Source of the DNA: Clostridia bacterium
GTDB taxonomy: Bacteria > Bacillota > Clostridia > TANB77 > CAG-465
NCBI GenBank assembly: GCA_017521005.1
Contig: JAFXEC010000002.1
Span: 1-34,946 of the forward strand
DNA length: 34,946 nucleotides
Direction of reading: 5' to 3'
Shown here: piece after piece, positions 3,096 through 34,794 of the stretch
Position numbering within the stretch: the stretch's first letter is position 1
How the letters are laid out: each line of letters begins with the position of its first letter
Position numbers and translations under genes: made by a program
Notes under the pieces: model-generated
The model's input: only the letters and a program-made list of their open reading frames with translations
The model's database searches: none
What the model was told of the DNA's origin: nothing

Positions 3096-3899
3096 TTATA
3101 CTTCTTTTTTCTTTATCATAATCTTTTCAACAAAAGAATGTTTTTCTTTATTTTTTAGATATAGAAATCCAAATATATTAAATACTGCTGCACCGATAAA
3201 ATTTACTATTAAATCTTTCATTGTGTCTTTAATACCAACATCTAGATATCCATCAAATCTAACTAATTCTTTTCCAGTTTCATCATAAACTATAGTTTTA
3301 GCTATATTATCTATCGTCACTACATTATTATTTTGCTCAGGATCTATAGTTACTGTTCTTATTACAGATATATACTCATCTTTTTGCATATCTGTTTTCA
3401 TTATTTCGTCCATACCATATTCAAAGAATTCCCAAACTACTCCTACAGTCATTGAAAAGCAGAACGCAAATAAGCATAGATAAATTGGAGATAAATTTAA
3501 TTTTTCTGAATTCTTATTTAATATATCTACTAATGAGAATCCTATTGCTCCCATTAGGAACCCATTTAATGTATGTAGCATTGTATCCCAAAAAGGTATC
3601 ATTCCATAGAAGTTATTTATTTCTCCTAGTATTTCAGCTGAAAACACAAACAACATTGTTATTATTTCAAGTACATTTGGCATATCTATCTTCATATACT
3701 TTTCTACAAAAAACGGTATAAGTAACAATACTAATGTAAGTGCGCAAAGAAGTACATTTTGTAAATCTCCCCTTAGTATTTGCAATACCATACAAAGAAT
3801 AACAAGTGCTCTTAGTATAAAATACGTTATTAAAGTACTTCTATCATCCTTCCACGTTTCTTTAATTTCATTCCCTAATCTTTTAATATATCCCTTCAT
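3096..3899 (-). CDS. Multi-pass membrane protein, DUF2238/YjdF-like (267 aa)
   Basis: An integral membrane protein with about six hydrophobic segments. Near the middle it carries FWDTMLHTLNGFLMGAIG and, about 50 residues later, VVWEFFEYGMDE, a spacing of acidic and aromatic residues that recalls the DUF2238 (YjdF) family. Near the C-terminus, DVGIKDTMKDLIVNFIGAAVF is followed by a final membrane helix and a basic tail. A soluble, acidic insertion lies before that (about residues 170-225). The SD AGGTGAT precedes the ATG. Biochemical function is not known for the family. The neighbours are an XRE membrane regulator and a CPBP protease, so a membrane role is the only safe statement. Confidence 0.7.
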   Translation of the reverse strand: MKGYIKRLGNEIKETWKDDRSTLITYFILRALVILCMVLQILRGDLQNVLLCALTLVLLLIPFFVEKYMKIDMPNVLEIITMLFVFSAEILGEINNFYGMIPFWDTMLHTLNGFLMGAIGFSLVDILNKNSEKLNLSPIYLCLFAFCFSMTVGVVWEFFEYGMDEIMKTDMQKDEYISVIRTVTIDPEQNNNVVTIDNIAKTIVYDETGKELVRFDGYLDVGIKDTMKDLIVNFIGAAVFNIFGFLYLKNKEKHSFVEKIMIKKKEV

Positions 3900-8070: not shown

Positions 8071-9228
8071 TTATTTCACTAAACTAAAATCTGTTGTAGT
8101 TCCTACTATAGCTGGAATGTCTGCACTTATACAAACAACCGGTCTTACTCCATATGCTAAACGGTCACAACGATCATAGCTAACTCCTAATTCCCCATCT
8201 AATGTAATTACATTGTTTCCACTTGCAGCCGACGGAGATGCTAACCAAATATCAGAATTTTTTACTGGTTTCCAAAAATATAATGAATCTTCTAAATATA
8301 ATACTAACGATGATGTATTACTTGTATTTCCATTTGTTATATCATTAATATAATAACCAGTAGTACCATTTTCAATTAATTCTAACTTTTTGTATTTTGC
8401 TATTTCATTAATAGCTTGACTTTTTTCATTCCAACTTGCTACAAGCATTTCAGCGGTAGGTGTTCCAATCGCACCTTTAACATATTTACTATAGCTTGAG
8501 TTTGTATTCTTAAAACCTTTCCAAATTGTTTCATCTAAAAAGTAAGTTATCCATTTTGCGTTATTGCCAGATGAATAATTACTCCAATTTGCCATCCATC
8601 TTATTTTAGCTTCTGCAGAAATGTCTCTAGCCTCAACACTTATACCCTCTTCCCATGATATAGTCCCGAAGTTTTGATATTCTGTTCCTGATATTTCTGC
8701 CGCACCTTCACCTATATACGCATTATAACTAGTTAATTCTGTTGGTATTTTGCTTTTTTCAATAGCGCTTTCTGCTATTAAATATATGAATTGTTCAGAC
8801 CCTATATTTTGCTTATAAAATATCTTCCATTTTGAAACGCCATTGTCTGATACATAATCTACAGTTTTTCCGTAATCTTCTGGTCCCTTTATTAATGAGC
8901 CTAATGTTGTAGATGAACTATTTTTATTTGTTACTGTTACCCCTGTATCTGTTACAGTTATGTTCCATTTGTCTGCTGTTACTCCTTGTTCCCCTAATTT
9001 TGTTGTTACTTCATTTACTAGATCTGTTCCTCTTTTATTATCCATGTAAGCATCTGCCCAGATTAATGCAGCTAAATCTTGCACTTGTGATTCATTTGTT
9101 GCATCTACAGCTTGACTGGCTCTGTTTATTACACCAGTATTAGATAGTGTAATTACTACGCTTGCTGCAAGTATTATCATAACAATAATTGTTATTACTA
9201 ATACTATTAAAGATATTCCTTTTTTCAT
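8071..9228 (-). CDS. Type IV pilin-like protein 1 (385 aa)
   Basis: The N-terminus MKKGISLIVLVITIIVMIIL is a prepilin leader: a short basic stretch, Gly and then a long hydrophobic helix, probably cut after Gly. Position +5 is Val, not the usual Glu. A conserved helix follows (NESQVQDLAALIWADAYMDNKRG), shared with the paralogs at 19819 and 34045. The large C-terminal part is different. Its end, DIWLASPSAASGN to AYGVRPVVCIS, resembles the C-type-lectin-like surface domains of Firmicutes (DUF6273-like). The start is set at 9228 with AGGGGG upstream; a longer frame to 9288 lacks an SD. The product should be exported and assembled or anchored at the surface. No pilus assembly gene is in the window. 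Confidence 0.82.
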   Translation of the reverse strand: MKKGISLIVLVITIIVMIILAASVVITLSNTGVINRASQAVDATNESQVQDLAALIWADAYMDNKRGTDLVNEVTTKLGEQGVTADKWNITVTDTGVTVTNKNSSSTTLGSLIKGPEDYGKTVDYVSDNGVSKWKIFYKQNIGSEQFIYLIAESAIEKSKIPTELTSYNAYIGEGAAEISGTEYQNFGTISWEEGISVEARDISAEAKIRWMANWSNYSSGNNAKWITYFLDETIWKGFKNTNSSYSKYVKGAIGTPTAEMLVASWNEKSQAINEIAKYKKLELIENGTTGYYINDITNGNTSNTSSLVLYLEDSLYFWKPVKNSDIWLASPSAASGNNVITLDGELGVSYDRCDRLAYGVRPVVCISADIPAIVGTTTDFSLVK

Positions 9229-9258
9229 CTTTTGTTTTCCCCCTTCTTGTATAAAATA

Positions 9259-9288
9259 TATATACCACATCCTACTTATTTTTTTCAA
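9259..9288 (-). promoter_or_regulatory. Putative promoter of pilin-like gene 1
   Basis: On the minus strand, TTGAAA (9288-9283), an 18-bp spacer ending in TGTGG and TATATA (9264-9259). The structured leader seen at the other two pilin-like genes is absent here. Confidence 0.5.
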
Positions 9289-13986: not shown

Positions 13987-15645
13987 TTATTTTTCATTCA
14001 TATCTTCTATCTTAACTCTATTTTTAATCTTTTGCATTTCCTCTTTAAGACCTACAAGTTTCATCTTGATTTCAAACATTTCTTCTTCAGTTGCTCCATG
14101 TTTTACATCAGATTTAACTACTTTAGATACATCTTCCATATCTAATTTTAAGTATGTAAGCATTTCGTAGATATCTAATCTTAAGTTTGTTTCGCGTACA
14201 TTGTAGCTTGTCTTTTCAAACTTGCTATCTCCTAGATAGTATCTTTCATCTCTTTCAGGAATTACTACATCTATTCCAAACTTAGATTCTATTGCTTCAG
14301 CTAGTATTTTTTGACCTTCATATTCTCCATGTACTAAGAATATTCTTTTTGGTTTCTTTTCTATTTTTTCTATAAAATCTAATATACCTTGTTGGTCTGC
14401 ATGTCCTGAGAATGCGTCTAGCATTCTTATTTCTGCATTAACACCAATTTCTTCACCAAATATTTTAACTCTTGGTTCTCCAGACACTATCTTTCTACCT
14501 AATGTTCCTTCTGCTTGGTATCCTACAAATAATATTGTAGACTCTGGTCTCCATAGATTGTGTTTTAAGTGGTGTTTTACACGACCAGCTTCACACATTC
14601 CACTTGCAGATATTATTATCTTTGGCGTTGGATCTTCGTTTAAAGCTTTAGATTCATCTGCTGATGCAGTAAATCTTAAGTTCTTAAAGCTTATTGGGTT
14701 ATCTCCCATAAGTAAATAACTTAATGCATCTTCGTTATAACAATTAAAGTTATCTTCAAATATTTCTGTAGCATTTTTTGCGAGTGGGCTATCTACAACT
14801 ATTGGTATATTATCTAATCTTTCTATATATTTTTCTGCATCTACATCTTTAGATAAATATTTATTTAATTCAAATAATATTTCTTGTGTTCTACCAACTG
14901 CAAATGATGGTATTACTACATTACCACCTCTATCTATTGTATTTAATATTATTTTAATAAACTCTTCAGATTGTTCCTTTATTGGGCTGTGGAATCTTCC
15001 ACCGTATGTAGATTCTATTACTAGATAATCTGTATCTATTACATTTTCTGGTTCACGTATTATTGGATTTTCTTCATTTCCAAGGTCGCCTGTGAATGTT
15101 AATTTTTCTGTTTTACCATTTTCTGTGATGTATAGTTCAACTATTGCAGATCCTAACATATGTCCGGCATCAAGGAATTTGAAAGTAACATTATCGTTTA
15201 TTTTGTATTCTCTACCATAATCTATTTTCTTTAGAAGCTTACAGCTATCTAATCCATCTTTGGCAGTGTATATTGGTGGTTCTGGTGATTTACCAGCTCT
15301 CATACGTTTTCTATTTACCCATTCTATTTCTTTTTCTTGTATATGTCCACTATCTGGCAACATTACAGAACAAAGATCTGCAGTTGCTGGTGTACAATAT
15401 ACAGGTTTCTTATATCCTGAAACAAATAGTTTTGGTATTCTACCACTATGGTCTATGTGAGCGTGTGTAAGTATAACAAAATCTATATCATCTATATCGA
15501 ACCCAAAATCTTCATAGTTTAATATTTGTTCTGTTAATGTTCCTTGGAACAAGCCACAATCTATAAGGAATTTTGTATCTCCTACTTCTATCATGTGACA
15601 CGAACCAGTTACACCTCTTGCTGCTCCAAAAAATGTTATTTTCAT
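13987..15645 (-). CDS. Beta-CASP metallo-beta-lactamase-fold RNA/DNA-processing protein (552 aa)
   Basis: A predicted zinc-dependent nuclease. The metallo-beta-lactamase domain has the full set of ligands: HAHIDHSG, the histidine in DAGHMLGSA and the aspartate in FTGDLG. The beta-CASP motifs follow: the acidic motif in PIVVDSPLA, ISASGMCEAGRVKHHL, and FLVHGE near the C-terminal ligand, preceded by DAFSGHADQ. This layout (MBL, beta-CASP, RNA-specificity motif) is that of the CPSF-like YsgA/RNase family, not of the RNase J pair. A 90-residue charged helical extension follows residue 460. The SD AGGAGG is strong. It is the last gene of the ftsK operon. Confidence 0.88.
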   Translation of the reverse strand: MKITFFGAARGVTGSCHMIEVGDTKFLIDCGLFQGTLTEQILNYEDFGFDIDDIDFVILTHAHIDHSGRIPKLFVSGYKKPVYCTPATADLCSVMLPDSGHIQEKEIEWVNRKRMRAGKSPEPPIYTAKDGLDSCKLLKKIDYGREYKINDNVTFKFLDAGHMLGSAIVELYITENGKTEKLTFTGDLGNEENPIIREPENVIDTDYLVIESTYGGRFHSPIKEQSEEFIKIILNTIDRGGNVVIPSFAVGRTQEILFELNKYLSKDVDAEKYIERLDNIPIVVDSPLAKNATEIFEDNFNCYNEDALSYLLMGDNPISFKNLRFTASADESKALNEDPTPKIIISASGMCEAGRVKHHLKHNLWRPESTILFVGYQAEGTLGRKIVSGEPRVKIFGEEIGVNAEIRMLDAFSGHADQQGILDFIEKIEKKPKRIFLVHGEYEGQKILAEAIESKFGIDVVIPERDERYYLGDSKFEKTSYNVRETNLRLDIYEMLTYLKLDMEDVSKVVKSDVKHGATEEEMFEIKMKLVGLKEEMQKIKNRVKIEDMNEK

Positions 15646-19818: not shown

Positions 19819-21228
19819 TTACTTAATATAAAGAGATGGTCTAAACCCCAATATAGCATCATATGTCGGATTTCCACCATAATTCCAGTCAGTACGTACA
19901 GCAACCCCTTCTGAATAAGCAACCGCGCCACCACGTGCTACATTCCAAGTCTCATTTCCAAAGCCCTCCATGGTTATCTCATATGTATTTCCCGCCATAT
20001 CATATATATTATATACTTTTGTTTTCTTCAAAGCGCCTGTTGATAATAACATCATACTATTTTCCGTTTTCGCATCAGCTGTAGTCCAATTTCTTATTCC
20101 CGTATCATCAACATAATTTAAAAAAGTGGCTTGTTTAGCGTTTATATTCAAATCTTCTATTGTATAAGTAGTAGTTAAAAAATTTCCAAAAGTCAAGTCG
20201 CTGGTTAAATTAATATTACTATCTAATTCCTTCCACCAAGAAAGAGTTCTGTCCCATTGTACTCCATATGTAAGCGTTGATACAACACCATATTTATCGT
20301 TTGTTGTTGTATAAAAACTTCTAGCTATCGACATAGCATTTAAATTACTGCAAGGATATTTTCCCATTGTTATACTAATATCTCCAGTTCCATTATTATT
20401 AGCATCTAATGTATTTCCACCCGCTTCATAACGTGCAATATAAAACCCACCATATTTTTTTACACTTGCATACATAGCTCTAGCTTCTGATATTGTAGTT
20501 GTAGGTACATAAGGTGATTCGCTCATACTATCCACATAACTATCTTGCCCTTCAATTGGCATATTATTTGAATCCAAAACAAGTTCCCAAAAAGCCTCTG
20601 AACCAAGTTCGTTTGATATAAGTGATGTAGTATTTATATAATCAACTCTCTTGAATAATGTTTCAAACTTCTCAATATCTACCGGCACCCATACAAACTG
20701 ATTTCTTGTTTCCAATGATACTTGTTGTCCAGCATCTTTTGTTGTTATTTTAGTAACACCTTCTGATATTTCTTCTTCGGTTAATGCATATATTACTAAA
20801 CCTTCATTCTTTTTATTCTCACCTACATATGGTGACTTTACAAATCCAAATGGTATCGGTACTCCATCAGATGTTATTTCTCTAACACTAGTGTTCCAAT
20901 CTTCTGGCACTACCACTTTTATGGATACTTGAACACCCTCATCTGTCACCGATATATTCCAAGTGTCTTCTGCAATTCCTTGTTCAACTAATTTTGTTAT
21001 TACTTCAGTTTCTAATTCTACTCCTCTTTTCCCATCCATATAAGCATCAGCCCATATCAGCGCAGCTAAATCTTGTACTTGTGACTCGTTTGTTTGTTTT
21101 ACTGCTTCATTTGCTCTATTTATTACACCAGTGTTGCTTAGTGCTATTATTACACTCGCTGCTAATATTATCATTACTATTATTGTAATGACTAAAACTA
21201 TTAAGGATATACCTTGTTTCTTTTGCAT
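19819..21228 (-). CDS. Type IV pilin-like protein 2 with a C-type-lectin/FGE-like domain (469 aa)
   Basis: The N-terminus MQKKQGISLIVLVITIIVMI is a prepilin-type leader, with Val in place of Glu at +5. The following 90 residues match the other two pilin-like proteins (NESQVQDLAALIWADAYMDGKRG). The C-terminal part resembles the formylglycine-generating-enzyme fold, a C-type-lectin variant. It shows NQFVWVPVDIEKF, YGGFYIARYEAGG, VYNIYDMAGNTYEITMEG, VARGGA and LGFRPSLYIK in the usual order. The key catalytic cysteines of FGE enzymes are not obvious, so it is more likely a binding domain than an enzyme. The product should be exported and surface-displayed. A structured leader lies upstream. The SD GGAGG directly follows a terminator-like hairpin. 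Confidence 0.85.
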   Translation of the reverse strand: MQKKQGISLIVLVITIIVMIILAASVIIALSNTGVINRANEAVKQTNESQVQDLAALIWADAYMDGKRGVELETEVITKLVEQGIAEDTWNISVTDEGVQVSIKVVVPEDWNTSVREITSDGVPIPFGFVKSPYVGENKKNEGLVIYALTEEEISEGVTKITTKDAGQQVSLETRNQFVWVPVDIEKFETLFKRVDYINTTSLISNELGSEAFWELVLDSNNMPIEGQDSYVDSMSESPYVPTTTISEARAMYASVKKYGGFYIARYEAGGNTLDANNNGTGDISITMGKYPCSNLNAMSIARSFYTTTNDKYGVVSTLTYGVQWDRTLSWWKELDSNINLTSDLTFGNFLTTTYTIEDLNINAKQATFLNYVDDTGIRNWTTADAKTENSMMLLSTGALKKTKVYNIYDMAGNTYEITMEGFGNETWNVARGGAVAYSEGVAVRTDWNYGGNPTYDAILGFRPSLYIK

Positions 21229-28394: not shown

Positions 28395-29660
28395 TTATTC
28401 CTCTATTTTTCTTCTACAGCCCCAAGTTCTACCAACATTTGTATTATCCTCTTTTCTATCTCTTAATTCCATTATTGGATTTGGTGCAACTTCAAACCTA
28501 TAACCCATACCACACTTGTCTATATGCTTATCTATTACATTATGACTTGGTACTGTTTCTACTTCTTCATTTACTTGACATTGATATTTAAAAAATCCCG
28601 CGTTAGGTTCTAGGTTTTGTACTAAAACATAGTTTTCTCTTTTAGCTGTATAGTCTACTGTACATTTTAATACTTCACGTACATATTCTATATTTGGTCC
28701 TAAATCCAAAAGTTCTGGGAAAACAGGATTTGGAATTACTTGTTCTACTTCTTTACCGTCATATTCACGAAGTAGATATGCAGCAAGATGAAGTCCAGCT
28801 ACTGAACGCTCATATCCCATACACCAAACTTTGCGTATATACGAGTTGGTTTCATACTTCATACAAGAATAATACAAATAGCACATTGTATACATATGCA
28901 TAAGTAGATTTTCATACCAAGTTGTATTTGGATCAAGCAAACTACCATAATGCGTAACGTGCTGTTCTTCTATCATAGCTATTTCTTGATACACTCTTCT
29001 ACCTAAATCTGTTGGATAAAGGTTACATATGTTCATATAGAAATTCATTGTTTGTTGTTCTGCTGCAGTTATAATGTTTACATGTAGTTTGGTTAAAATG
29101 TCTGCCTCTTTATTATTTATGTGATAACGTATAGAATCTAGCGGGCATCTATGTTCTGAAATAGTTGGTCTTCCTGGCATTATTTCAGTATATCTGCCAA
29201 CTAACTTTTCTGCCGGAATTCCACATTCCATTTCAAGAAGATTTGCATATCTATATAAATGATCAAAATCTTCTAGCAAAGCAAAATCTAACGCTTGTTT
29301 TACATATGGATCAGGTTCACATTTAGCAAGTCTAGCAGTTAAATCTACTGCGAGTTGCTCATATGTTATTGTTTCTTCTAACGCATTCTCATTAATTGGT
29401 TTTAAGCATTGTATTAACTTCTGCATCTGCCCAGATGTTCTTCTAATCACAGCTAATTTTCTTCTCACATCATTATCATTGCAATTTCTACTAAATTGAT
29501 GCATAAAAAATATTTGCTCTGTTTCTGCTCCATTCATAAGTATTATTCTTGTTTTAGTATATGGATCAACATTATTTTTATCATAAGATTTTGGATATAT
29601 TTCTCTCCAGTTCATATACGTTTTTTCTAAATCTATAGGTTGTTCGTTAAATGGGTTCAA
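28395..29660 (-). CDS. Ferritin-like helical protein, putative diiron or dimanganese (421 aa)
   Basis: I know no named family, but the sequence pattern is that of a ferritin-like four-helix metal site: Glu in YEQLAVDLT (E101), EDFDHLYRY (E130 to H134), E201 in ITAAEQQTMNFYMNI, and E231xxH234 in EIAMIEEQHVTHY. The first site is DxxH/ExxxH, not the standard ExxH. About 180 further residues contain Cys and Tyr (YLYYSCMKYET, VWCMGYERSVAG) and end in a basic GCRRKIEE tail. The start is TTG at 29660 with AAGGAG upstream; the frame to 29702 lacks an SD. A role in metal or oxidative chemistry of the spore or cell is a guess. Confidence 0.65.
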   Translation of the reverse strand: MNPFNEQPIDLEKTYMNWREIYPKSYDKNNVDPYTKTRIILMNGAETEQIFFMHQFSRNCNDNDVRRKLAVIRRTSGQMQKLIQCLKPINENALEETITYEQLAVDLTARLAKCEPDPYVKQALDFALLEDFDHLYRYANLLEMECGIPAEKLVGRYTEIMPGRPTISEHRCPLDSIRYHINNKEADILTKLHVNIITAAEQQTMNFYMNICNLYPTDLGRRVYQEIAMIEEQHVTHYGSLLDPNTTWYENLLMHMYTMCYLYYSCMKYETNSYIRKVWCMGYERSVAGLHLAAYLLREYDGKEVEQVIPNPVFPELLDLGPNIEYVREVLKCTVDYTAKRENYVLVQNLEPNAGFFKYQCQVNEEVETVPSHNVIDKHIDKCGMGYRFEVAPNPIMELRDRKEDNTNVGRTWGCRRKIEE

Positions 29661-29703
29661 AATTACCACACTCCTTCTATAGATATGTATGCATAAAAAC
29701 ATA

Positions 29704-31901: not shown

Positions 31902-33929
31902 TTACTTAAGTTCAGCGGGTATGAACTGGTCAAGCTCATCAGAAGTGACGATTCTCTTTTCGATAAGATACTCTGCCATCTTCTGCAAGATTTCCCAATG
32001 TTCATCGATAAACTTGATGGTCTTGTCGTAGCATTCCTTGATCAAGGCTGCAACCTTTTCGTTGATCTCATTTGCAAGTTTCTCGCTCATGAGATCGCTG
32101 TCCATAAGGAACAGATTCTTGAAGTTGTCTTCTTCCATACCATACTGAGTAACAACAATCTTTGCAAACTGCTGAGCCACCATGATATCGTTGGAAGCGC
32201 CGCTGTCCAAGTTTCTGTTTACCTTAAGCTGTGCAACTCTACCTGCAAGGCGCGCCATAATATATGCTTCCACATATTCTCTGTCGCACATAACGATGTT
32301 ATCGTTATCCTCGAGGATGTTTACTCCAAGATAGTCTTCTGCAGGAATGATAGAAATTGCGGTAACGTTTGTGTTGCCGTGCAGCTTGGTAAGACGGTTT
32401 ACGATATAATGCCCTACTTCGTGGTAAGCGGTAGATCTTACATCTGCCTTGGAAATCTTACCGTACTTTTCGAAACATTCTTCGTATACCTTGTCGATAC
32501 ACTCGCGTGTTACAACAGACTTCTTGTCTACCTTTGCAATAGCCATTGCGCGGTCCAGGAGGTCAAGCGTCTTGTCCGGGTTTGCATTTTCAAGGTTAAA
32601 ACAGTTGGAGCAAAGAATTACATAGTCCACAAGTTCACGAGGCACTTCTACCTTGTGGTATCTTTCCATGGACTTGATCTTTGCTTCGATCATAACCTTT
32701 ACTTCAGCATTCTTAGGTTCCTTAACCACGATTACCTCAAAACGACGCTTGAAAGCACCATCCCTTGAGAGAATCATATCGTATTCCTTATTGGTGGTAG
32801 CACCAACAAATACAACATCATCTCTAGAAAGGATAGGCTTAAGCGAACCGCTAAGGTCAACGTTGCCATCGGAAGTACCGCCTGCTCCAAGCATCTGGTG
32901 CATCTCATCTACGAAGAGAATTACCTTAGGAGTATTCTCCAAGAACTGCTTAAGAATTGCAACCTTGGTTTCAAACTCACCACGATACTTGGTACCTGCA
33001 ACCATTGCATTTACATCGAGGGACAAAACGGTATATCCAACAAATTCTGTCGGACAAGTTTCGTTTACGATGTGCTGAGTAATAGCCTCAATGATTGCGG
33101 TTTTACCAACTCCGGGTTTACCAACCAGAACTGCATTTCTCTTGGTCTTCTTAGAGAATATATTGAACGCCTTGTAGATTTCTTTATCTCTTCCAAGAAT
33201 TACGATTTCATCGCCCTTCTTGTACTTTTCGTTAAGGATTTCTACGCAGGTAGCAAGGGCTGCCGGAATAACCACAGGCCTTTCGATATGATCAGCATCT
33301 TCAGAAATATTTGCAATCATTCTAAGACTGTTCATAAAGGTAGGCATATCCCAACCAAGTCCGTTTACGAAACCATTTACAAACTTGTAGGCACTTGATT
33401 CTTCGTTCTGAAGAAGTGAGTAAATGATTACATCAAGAGTAAGGTAATCTAAGCCCATTGCTTTGCATCTGAGATATGCTTCATCCAAAGCTGCTTCCAG
33501 CTTATCTGAATAAGCGGGGACAAGAATGTCCATCTCGTCATCTCCATATCCCATAAGGTCTGCAAGGAATTCCATTACCGTCGCTTCAATGCGTTCATTT
33601 TCTGTAGGCGGTTCTTCCTTAGAATTGTTTGCCGTCTCCATCTCTTCTTCCATTTCTTCGCGTTCTGCAAAGATTTTTTCTGCTATTTCCTTACCAAAAA
33701 TGTTACCAAAGAGTTTCTTATCCTCCATAATGAGATCGAGGTCCGGAATCATGATGCCGTTTGCATCCATAATGATTTTGGAAATCGACGAGTCCAAAAT
33801 GTTCAATGCTGCAAAGATTACATATGCACTCCGAATCTTTTCATCATCGAAACGCCATGCAATGTCTGTCGCAAGCTCGAACGCTTTTCTTGTGTTGCCA
33901 TCAACTTTGGCTGTGCGCCATTCATACAT
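31902..33929 (-). CDS. Soluble Clp-FtsH hybrid ATP-dependent zinc protease (675 aa)
   Basis: Residues about 15-60 and 145-205 look like the two helical repeats of a Clp N-domain (KAFELATDIAWRFDDEKIRSAYVIFAALN, LEAALDEAYLRCKAMGLDYLTLDVIIYSLLQ), with an acidic insertion between them. A ClpA/B/C first AAA+ module follows: Walker A GKPGVGKT (270-277), pore loop KYRGEFE (314-320), Walker B VILFVDE (336-342), sensor VGATTN (375-380), FKRRF (393-397) and PDKTLDLLD (451-459). The protein then turns into an FtsH M41 protease: HEVGH (503-507) and SGASND (Asp581, the third zinc ligand). There is no membrane helix and no second Clp AAA+ domain or ClpP-docking loop. It should be a self-contained cytosolic unfoldase-protease. 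The gene is richer in G+C than its flanks. The SD AAGGAGA is good. Confidence 0.85.
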   Translation of the reverse strand: MYEWRTAKVDGNTRKAFELATDIAWRFDDEKIRSAYVIFAALNILDSSISKIIMDANGIMIPDLDLIMEDKKLFGNIFGKEIAEKIFAEREEMEEEMETANNSKEEPPTENERIEATVMEFLADLMGYGDDEMDILVPAYSDKLEAALDEAYLRCKAMGLDYLTLDVIIYSLLQNEESSAYKFVNGFVNGLGWDMPTFMNSLRMIANISEDADHIERPVVIPAALATCVEILNEKYKKGDEIVILGRDKEIYKAFNIFSKKTKRNAVLVGKPGVGKTAIIEAITQHIVNETCPTEFVGYTVLSLDVNAMVAGTKYRGEFETKVAILKQFLENTPKVILFVDEMHQMLGAGGTSDGNVDLSGSLKPILSRDDVVFVGATTNKEYDMILSRDGAFKRRFEVIVVKEPKNAEVKVMIEAKIKSMERYHKVEVPRELVDYVILCSNCFNLENANPDKTLDLLDRAMAIAKVDKKSVVTRECIDKVYEECFEKYGKISKADVRSTAYHEVGHYIVNRLTKLHGNTNVTAISIIPAEDYLGVNILEDNDNIVMCDREYVEAYIMARLAGRVAQLKVNRNLDSGASNDIMVAQQFAKIVVTQYGMEEDNFKNLFLMDSDLMSEKLANEINEKVAALIKECYDKTIKFIDEHWEILQKMAEYLIEKRIVTSDELDQFIPAELK

Positions 33930-33981
33930 ATTTAATCATCTCCTTTATATTAATAATAGATTTTTAATTTTTTATGTAAAG

Positions 33982-34044: not shown

Positions 34045-34794
34045 CTATTCTGCTACTACAAATGTTTGACCGTTAAACACAAATGATTTACCATCTTCTG
34101 AGAATGTAACAACTAATCCACCAGATGCTATATCTGTCTTTTTATCCGAATAAGTAATTACACTACCAGGTATTGTTGTTTGTTCTATATATACACCATC
34201 ACTATTTACATAGAATCCGCATTGTGCTCCTAAAGAACCTGTTCCGGTATATAATGTCTTATATTTTAAACTATCTACCTTTACATATGTATTTCCCATA
34301 AAGTCTCCTGCAGAAATACTACTACCTTCTTCAATTCTTTCATCCGTTATAATTGAAACTATTTGCATTCCTTTTTCTTCGGTAAAAATTACTCTTGAAT
34401 ATGTAAGTAGAGAACCGTAATAGTATCTTTCACACACATATTCCTTATCAAAATAGAAATTGTATTCATTCTTTTGTAGTGTATCTGGTTTCATATTTAT
34501 ACCTGTATTATCTACAGTTAAATCATAATCATTTACATTAACTCCTTGTTCTCTTAAAGCCTCTTTTACTTCCATTTCAAGCATGAACGGATCTCTTATA
34601 CCTTCAGTATACGCCTCTGCCCATGCTAATGCTGCAAGATTTTGCACTTGCTGTTTGTCTGTTTTGTCAACAGCTTCGTTTGCTCTGTCTATTATTCCTG
34701 TGTTTGTTAATGTTATTACAACAGTTGCAGCAAGTATTATCATTACTATTATTGTAATGACTAAAACTATTAAAGATATTCCTTTCTTTTGCAT
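34045..34794 (-). CDS. Type IV pilin-like protein 3 (249 aa)
   Basis: The N-terminus MQKKGISLIVLVITIIVMII is again a prepilin leader with Val at +5. The next 80 residues match the paralogs (NTGIIDRANEAVDKTDKQQVQNLAALAWAEAY). The C-terminal 140 residues are unrelated to the other two: mostly short beta-like strands with Gly, Tyr and Thr (YVCERYYYGSLLTYSRVIF, GAQCGFYVNSDGVYIEQTT). It may be a minor pilin-like or surface-anchored protein. The SD GGAGG follows a conserved leader hairpin, which is cut at its 5' end by the window edge. Confidence 0.82.
   Translation of the reverse strand: MQKKGISLIVLVITIIVMIILAATVVITLTNTGIIDRANEAVDKTDKQQVQNLAALAWAEAYTEGIRDPFMLEMEVKEALREQGVNVNDYDLTVDNTGINMKPDTLQKNEYNFYFDKEYVCERYYYGSLLTYSRVIFTEEKGMQIVSIITDERIEEGSSISAGDFMGNTYVKVDSLKYKTLYTGTGSLGAQCGFYVNSDGVYIEQTTIPGSVITYSDKKTDIASGGLVVTFSEDGKSFVFNGQTFVVAE

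Follow-up and report, generated by a model that had tools for sequence, protein, structure and literature searches.

A single chain joining Clp-type N-domains and a D1-type AAA+ module to an M41 peptidase: a probable soluble metalloprotease from one order of Clostridia

Described AAA+ proteases closest to the fusion protein

The main classes of AAA+ proteases comprise the Clp, HslUV, Lon, FtsH and proteasome types, and in HSP100 proteins the D1 ring normally operates together with a D2 ring. The gene described here belongs to a gut lineage of uncultured Clostridia and lies in a window of 34,946 nucleotides (the whole stretch of DNA analysed), and its product, referred to below as the fusion protein, shares features with several of these systems. 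With ClpC, ClpA and ClpB it has in common a double Clp_N domain, a D1 AAA+ module with a KYRG pore loop and the lid AAA_lid_9, whereas it lacks their middle domain and D2 ring, and hence the D2 ClpP-docking loop, and carries an M41 peptidase of its own. Like Lon, it appears soluble and combines an N-domain, an AAA+ module and a peptidase in one chain; the peptidase of Lon, however, is a Ser-Lys S16 domain, which is absent from the Pfam and NCBIfam matches listed for the fusion protein. With FtsH, YME1 and AFG3 it shares the single-chain organisation and an M41 domain, with HExxH and Asp, placed directly after the AAA+ lid, but it differs from them in its D1-type AAA+ module, in the absence of membrane helices, in the Clp_N domains at its front and in an M41 domain that groups outside all sampled FtsH. 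FtsH proteases are presented as membrane-anchored in a 2022 review (PMC9020784). YME1L engineered as a soluble protein is active without its membrane anchor when hexamerised in another way (PMC5095350), and so parallels the fusion protein as an M41 AAA protease lacking an anchor; its hexameriser is a man-made coiled coil, while the fusion protein has a natural Clp-type front end.

No description of a single Clp_N-D1-M41 chain was found in the literature, a search confined to full-text, open-access papers. As far as the open-access literature shows, this is a previously unreported combination of known AAA+ protease parts.

Gene and domain organisation

The gene occupies positions 31902..33929 on the minus strand, as do all its features given below, and encodes 675 amino acids (coordinates, strand and length are exact) in the order Clp_N twice, D1 AAA+, AAA_lid_9 and Peptidase_M41. 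A ribosome-binding site, AAGGAG (33940..33945), precedes the ATG at normal spacing. The presence of a Clp-type unfoldase and an M41 peptidase in this one open reading frame had been predicted, and the domain order is borne out by Pfam, with matches to AAA (residues 267-399, 1.6e-13), AAA_lid_9 (412-474, 2.4e-8) and Peptidase_M41 (PF01434; 492-668, 1.1e-28), each exceeding the Pfam cut-off. Among NCBIfam models, ClpA (6e-65) scores better than FtsH (6e-31), both remaining far under the full-family cut-offs; TIGR01241, taken as a test for the FtsH family, scores 107.8 bits, its cut-off being 600. Among PDB entries, S. aureus ClpC is closest in sequence (2e-52, spanning residues 115-502), and FtsH structures align more weakly, across the AAA and M41 regions. 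Only one AAA module is present, no second module (D2) or, as in ClpA/C, accompanying ClpP-docking loop having been found in the protein, and the M41 domain directly follows the D1 lid, in agreement with the proposal that it stands in place of the second AAA+ ring. The gene is under purifying selection: comparison with L001, a homologue of 99% identity, gives a dN/dS of 0.05, and the values obtained span 0.05-0.16.

The D1-type AAA+ module, assigned by HMM, BLAST and phylogeny, covers residues 243-400 (32730..33203). Motif alignment places its Walker A, GKPGVGKT, at residues 270-277 (33099..33122), its Walker B, ILFVDE, at 337-342 (32904..32921) and its arginine finger pair, RR, at 395-396 (32742..32747). 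The pore loop, TKYRG (313-317; 32979..32993), is of the HSP100 D1 type, and its Tyr315 aligns at the position of the FtsH pore-loop Phe. The ClpA/B/C D1 lid, AAA_lid_9, follows at 412-474 (32508..32696) and is matched by Pfam in 28/28 members, so that the D1 AAA+ module with AAA_lid_9, a feature of class I HSP100 proteins, is present. Over residues 236-475, BLAST identity is 38.9% to E. coli ClpB D1 and 37.3% to ClpA D1, against 22.7% to the FtsH of the same organism. A tree of AAA modules places the fusion family on the ClpA/B/C/E D1 side and puts FtsH and D2 modules on very long separate branches; this tree comes from a quick search, some of its deep forks are weak and one fusion member falls outside the rest. 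HMM, BLAST, phylogeny and pore loop thus all speak for the first ClpA/B/C type that had been predicted and against the FtsH type, whose Phe pore loop is missing and replaced by the Tyr of KYRG. In the main group of 28 aligned members, Walker A, the DE of Walker B, the RRF finger and the HExxH and Asp of the peptidase are kept throughout, the pore Tyr in 26/28 and the GATT-type sensor region in nearly all.

Within the family, sequence divergence is greatest in the N-terminal region. Pfam Clp_N gives no score on the fusion protein and a weak one in 2/28 members; since the model is insensitive for this domain, a profile-profile comparison was used instead, in which residues 1-222 of 28 family members were aligned by hhalign with 18 ClpC N-domains. 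The match spans both repeats (98.3% probability, 1.8e-14 in a single comparison), and each fusion repeat on its own matches both ClpC repeats, while seven controls (the FtsH N- and C-terminal regions, the ClpC middle domain, the ClpC D2 end and three column-shuffled ClpC profiles) all stay below 1%. Repeat 1 lies at residues 5-57 (33759..33917; 94% against the ClpC N-domain) and repeat 2 at 139-206 (33312..33515; 96.9%). Between them, an acidic, poorly conserved linker is seen in the alignment at about residues 86-131 (33537..33674); its length varies among members, and model confidence is low at residues 125-134. The two Clp_N-like repeats of the original prediction are therefore upheld despite the weak Pfam scores, and the double Clp_N domain, as judged by profile comparison, is a further feature of ClpA/ClpB/ClpC (class I HSP100) that is present.

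The M41 domain (residues 492-668; 31926..32456) is matched by Pfam in 28/28 members. It contains the zinc-binding HEVGH (503-507; 32409..32423) and SGASND (576-581; 32187..32204), which ends in the distal zinc-ligand Asp581. These motifs had been noted in the prediction, and H503, E504, H507 and D581 prove invariant in 28/28 members and aligned with the corresponding residues in 24/24 FtsH sequences. Identity to the M41 domain of the organism's own FtsH is 33%. In a tree of M41 domains, a branch with 100% SH-aLRT support separates all sampled FtsH from all fusion proteins, a split consistent with a single origin of the fusion, although neither the root nor a single origin is proven.

The N-terminal transmembrane helices of the FtsH family are absent. 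No membrane helix was found in the fusion protein by hydropathy, as predicted, the highest 19-residue value being 1.47, and a scan of 33 loci gave few values above 1.6, all of them within Clp_N or M41 regions.

AlphaFold2 modelling with four close homologues only gave a poor model (pLDDT 58). Once ClpC-like and FtsH-like rows were added, the model reached a pLDDT of 85.3 and a pTM of 0.64 and matched ClpC over its front half and FtsH over the AAA and M41 regions; these fold matches are not independent, because ClpC and FtsH rows were in the alignment of the model.

Distribution and origin

The search across genomes for chains combining Clp_N, AAA, lid and M41, which had been suggested with the prediction, was run with a lid-plus-M41 profile. 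It found a fusion gene in 44/287 sampled genomes of the same order, belonging to 12/45 genera and three families; in the family of the window itself, 17/36 genomes gave a match. Homologues occur in independent metagenome-assembled genomes (MAGs) at 99%, 57-59% and 41-43% identity; the titled ones are MAGs of uncultured Clostridia, including one obtained from sheep rectum. In a class-wide sample, five genomes among the matches listed were matched through the lid, all of the same order, and the approximately 365 genomes of other orders yielded, among the matches listed, at best M41-only, FtsH-like matches, with no fusion recognised. In the phylum-wide sample, the window genome alone was matched through the lid among the matches listed, with no fusion recognised in 383 further genomes. 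Since the class and phylum match lists reach about 1e-41, members of great divergence might have escaped notice; the survey did not extend to other phyla. Among the matches listed for phages, plasmids and viral contigs there was no full-length relative, the matches being ClpA/C-like or M41/FtsH-like; one on an Alkaliphilus plasmid was rejected as a relative, being an ordinary two-helix FtsH.

In the AAA tree, most members split into two groups, one of the window's family and one of the other two families. This pattern suggests a gene that was passed on mostly vertically and lost many times, an inference from the tree without comparison with a species tree. One genome carries two intact fusion-gene copies about 3 kb apart (L176, G203:C1, 6851-8764 and 11923-13917), and in another the member is spread over two overlapping frames (L155, G158:C30, 9399-10752), by frameshift or assembly error.

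Relatives with a decayed motor

In eleven relatives, found in as many genomes, HExxH and Asp are intact, but the AAA+ motor lacks its Walker B Glu, its Arg fingers, its pore loop or several of these (loci L248-L255, L259, L177 and L178; genomes G163, G256, G108, G121, G209, G012, G097, G067, G171, G052 and G254). In most of them the N-terminal region is shorter and different. They stand at several positions in the M41 tree, and the motor was apparently lost several times, as far as sequences can tell. ATP hydrolysis is thus not always kept in the family. In the pairs tested, dN/dS of the AAA region is about 0.19-0.23, which indicates that this region is maintained and is not pseudogene debris. 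A likeness exists with the plant FtsHi proteins, described as pseudo-proteases whose peptidase activity is lost (PMC8197885): both are paralogues missing one of two activities. The direction of the loss differs: in this side branch it is the motor that has decayed and the peptidase site that remains.

Genome setting

Besides the fusion gene, the host genome has genes for FtsH, ClpP, MecA and proteins resembling ClpE and ClpC; ClpS was not detected in it. In locus L256 (G000:C16), at about 3385-3430, the genome's own ClpC frame is broken near the D2 Walker A, and the rest of the protein is encoded in a different frame; an assembly error is the probable cause, although the break would matter if real. 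No convincing CtsR or CIRCE heat-shock boxes were found 5' of the fusion gene, nor before the genome's own clpE, clpC and ftsH.

The fusion gene of the window has recG as a neighbour. Read by eye, the neighbours of fusion genes are mostly unrelated housekeeping genes that differ between genomes, and no conserved operon partner or client gene was found beside them. Adjoining recG, a 435-residue protein without Pfam match is encoded at 28395-29702 (minus strand), and is also found beside the L001 homologue. Directly upstream of the fusion gene, at 34045-34794 (minus strand), lies a gene whose product has a pilin-like start (GISLIVLVITIIVMIILAA) and no Pfam match, as have two further proteins of the window (8071-9288 and 19819-21228). 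A beta-CASP metallo-beta-lactamase gene is situated beside or near the fusion gene at L147, L149, L151, L156, L171, L173 and L176, in several genomes of the two other families and in differing orientations; its homologue in the window is at 13987-15645.

Proposed function and alternatives

The chain contains a double Clp_N domain, a catalytically complete D1 AAA+ module and a complete M41 domain, without anchor or second ring. The joint presence of ATPase motor residues and a peptidase site in one machine, a general feature of AAA+ proteases, is met on the evidence of sequence only. The best reading is a hexameric AAA+ metalloprotease that is soluble and self-contained and whose mechanism lies between those of ClpC-ClpP and FtsH; the hexameric state is inferred. 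That the fusion protein is a soluble, single-chain AAA+ metalloprotease is considered likely, its activity and substrates also being inferences; the domain content and hydropathy agree with the single-chain, membrane-free protease originally envisaged. Six copies would form a stacked barrel, in which the Clp_N domains may capture substrates or adaptors, possibly of the MecA type, the D1 ring with its pore Tyr would unfold and thread the chain driven by ATP, and the M41 ring, below D1 at the position of D2 and ClpP, would cut it into peptides. The site of action would be the cytosol, alongside ordinary ClpC/ClpE-ClpP and membrane-bound FtsH. ATP-dependent cytosolic degradation and adaptor use fit the conserved residues, in the absence of biochemical data, and the activity of the soluble, engineered YME1L hexamer makes a natural soluble M41 machine plausible by analogy (PMC5095350).

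Among the alternatives, a specialised processing peptidase survives best, though it is judged unlikely: D1 would remodel or position a single client or a few, brought in by the N-domain, and M41 would make limited cuts, without general processive degradation. The divergence of the N-domain speaks for it, as do the genome's own ClpC/E, ClpP and FtsH genes, which already cover general proteolysis, and the patchy occurrence (44/287), which shows the gene to be dispensable. Threading, however, is what would be expected from a pore Tyr, both Arg fingers and a Walker B that in the main group are nearly as conserved as the zinc site, and no client gene is linked to the fusion gene. Improbable, in turn, is an ATPase-gated or even ATP-independent peptidase with an AAA+ ring serving mainly as scaffold; the eleven motor-decayed relatives, which keep the zinc site and, in the tested pairs, an AAA region under purifying selection, would suit such a protein, but the motor residues are kept in the window protein and in 27 other aligned members. 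A protease for defence against phages or mobile elements is a still weaker candidate, and a very doubtful one. It could account for the patchy occurrence and for the decay of the motor in some lineages, and PADLOC gives matches to AAA models, yet these matches are weak and confined to AAA-type models, neither a specific PADLOC match to a known anti-phage system nor a defence neighbourhood was found, the neighbours (recG in the window, others housekeeping-like by eye) do not look like defence genes, and no copies are among the listed phage, plasmid and viral-contig matches. Finally, an assembly or annotation artefact fusing a clp fragment to an ftsH fragment, which the original prediction had named as a possible refutation and which a MAG contig such as the window might invite, can be rejected with near certainty, given the same join in independent MAGs and 44 genomes with frames intact in nearly all, the location of the genome's own clpE and ftsH elsewhere, and dN/dS far below 1.

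Significance

The fusion swaps parts between two classes of AAA+ protease. If it is the soluble metalloprotease preferred here, the swap tests whether a single HSP100 D1 ring suffices, in the absence of D2, to unfold substrates and pass them to a peptidase, and whether proteolysis by M41 depends on the membrane or on the motor of FtsH. Such a protein would in principle be a compact, soluble protease that recognises its substrates through a Clp-type domain. More tentatively, with chances put a little short of even, the family may form a class of its own among cytosolic AAA+ proteases, one that arose from a single fusion of a Clp N-domain/D1 part with M41 in one order of Clostridia, whose descendants repeatedly disabled the motor and kept the peptidase site, becoming peptidases gated by a non-hydrolysing Clp ring. 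The motor-decayed relatives pose the question of what role a peptidase ring may have beneath a silent AAA+ ring.
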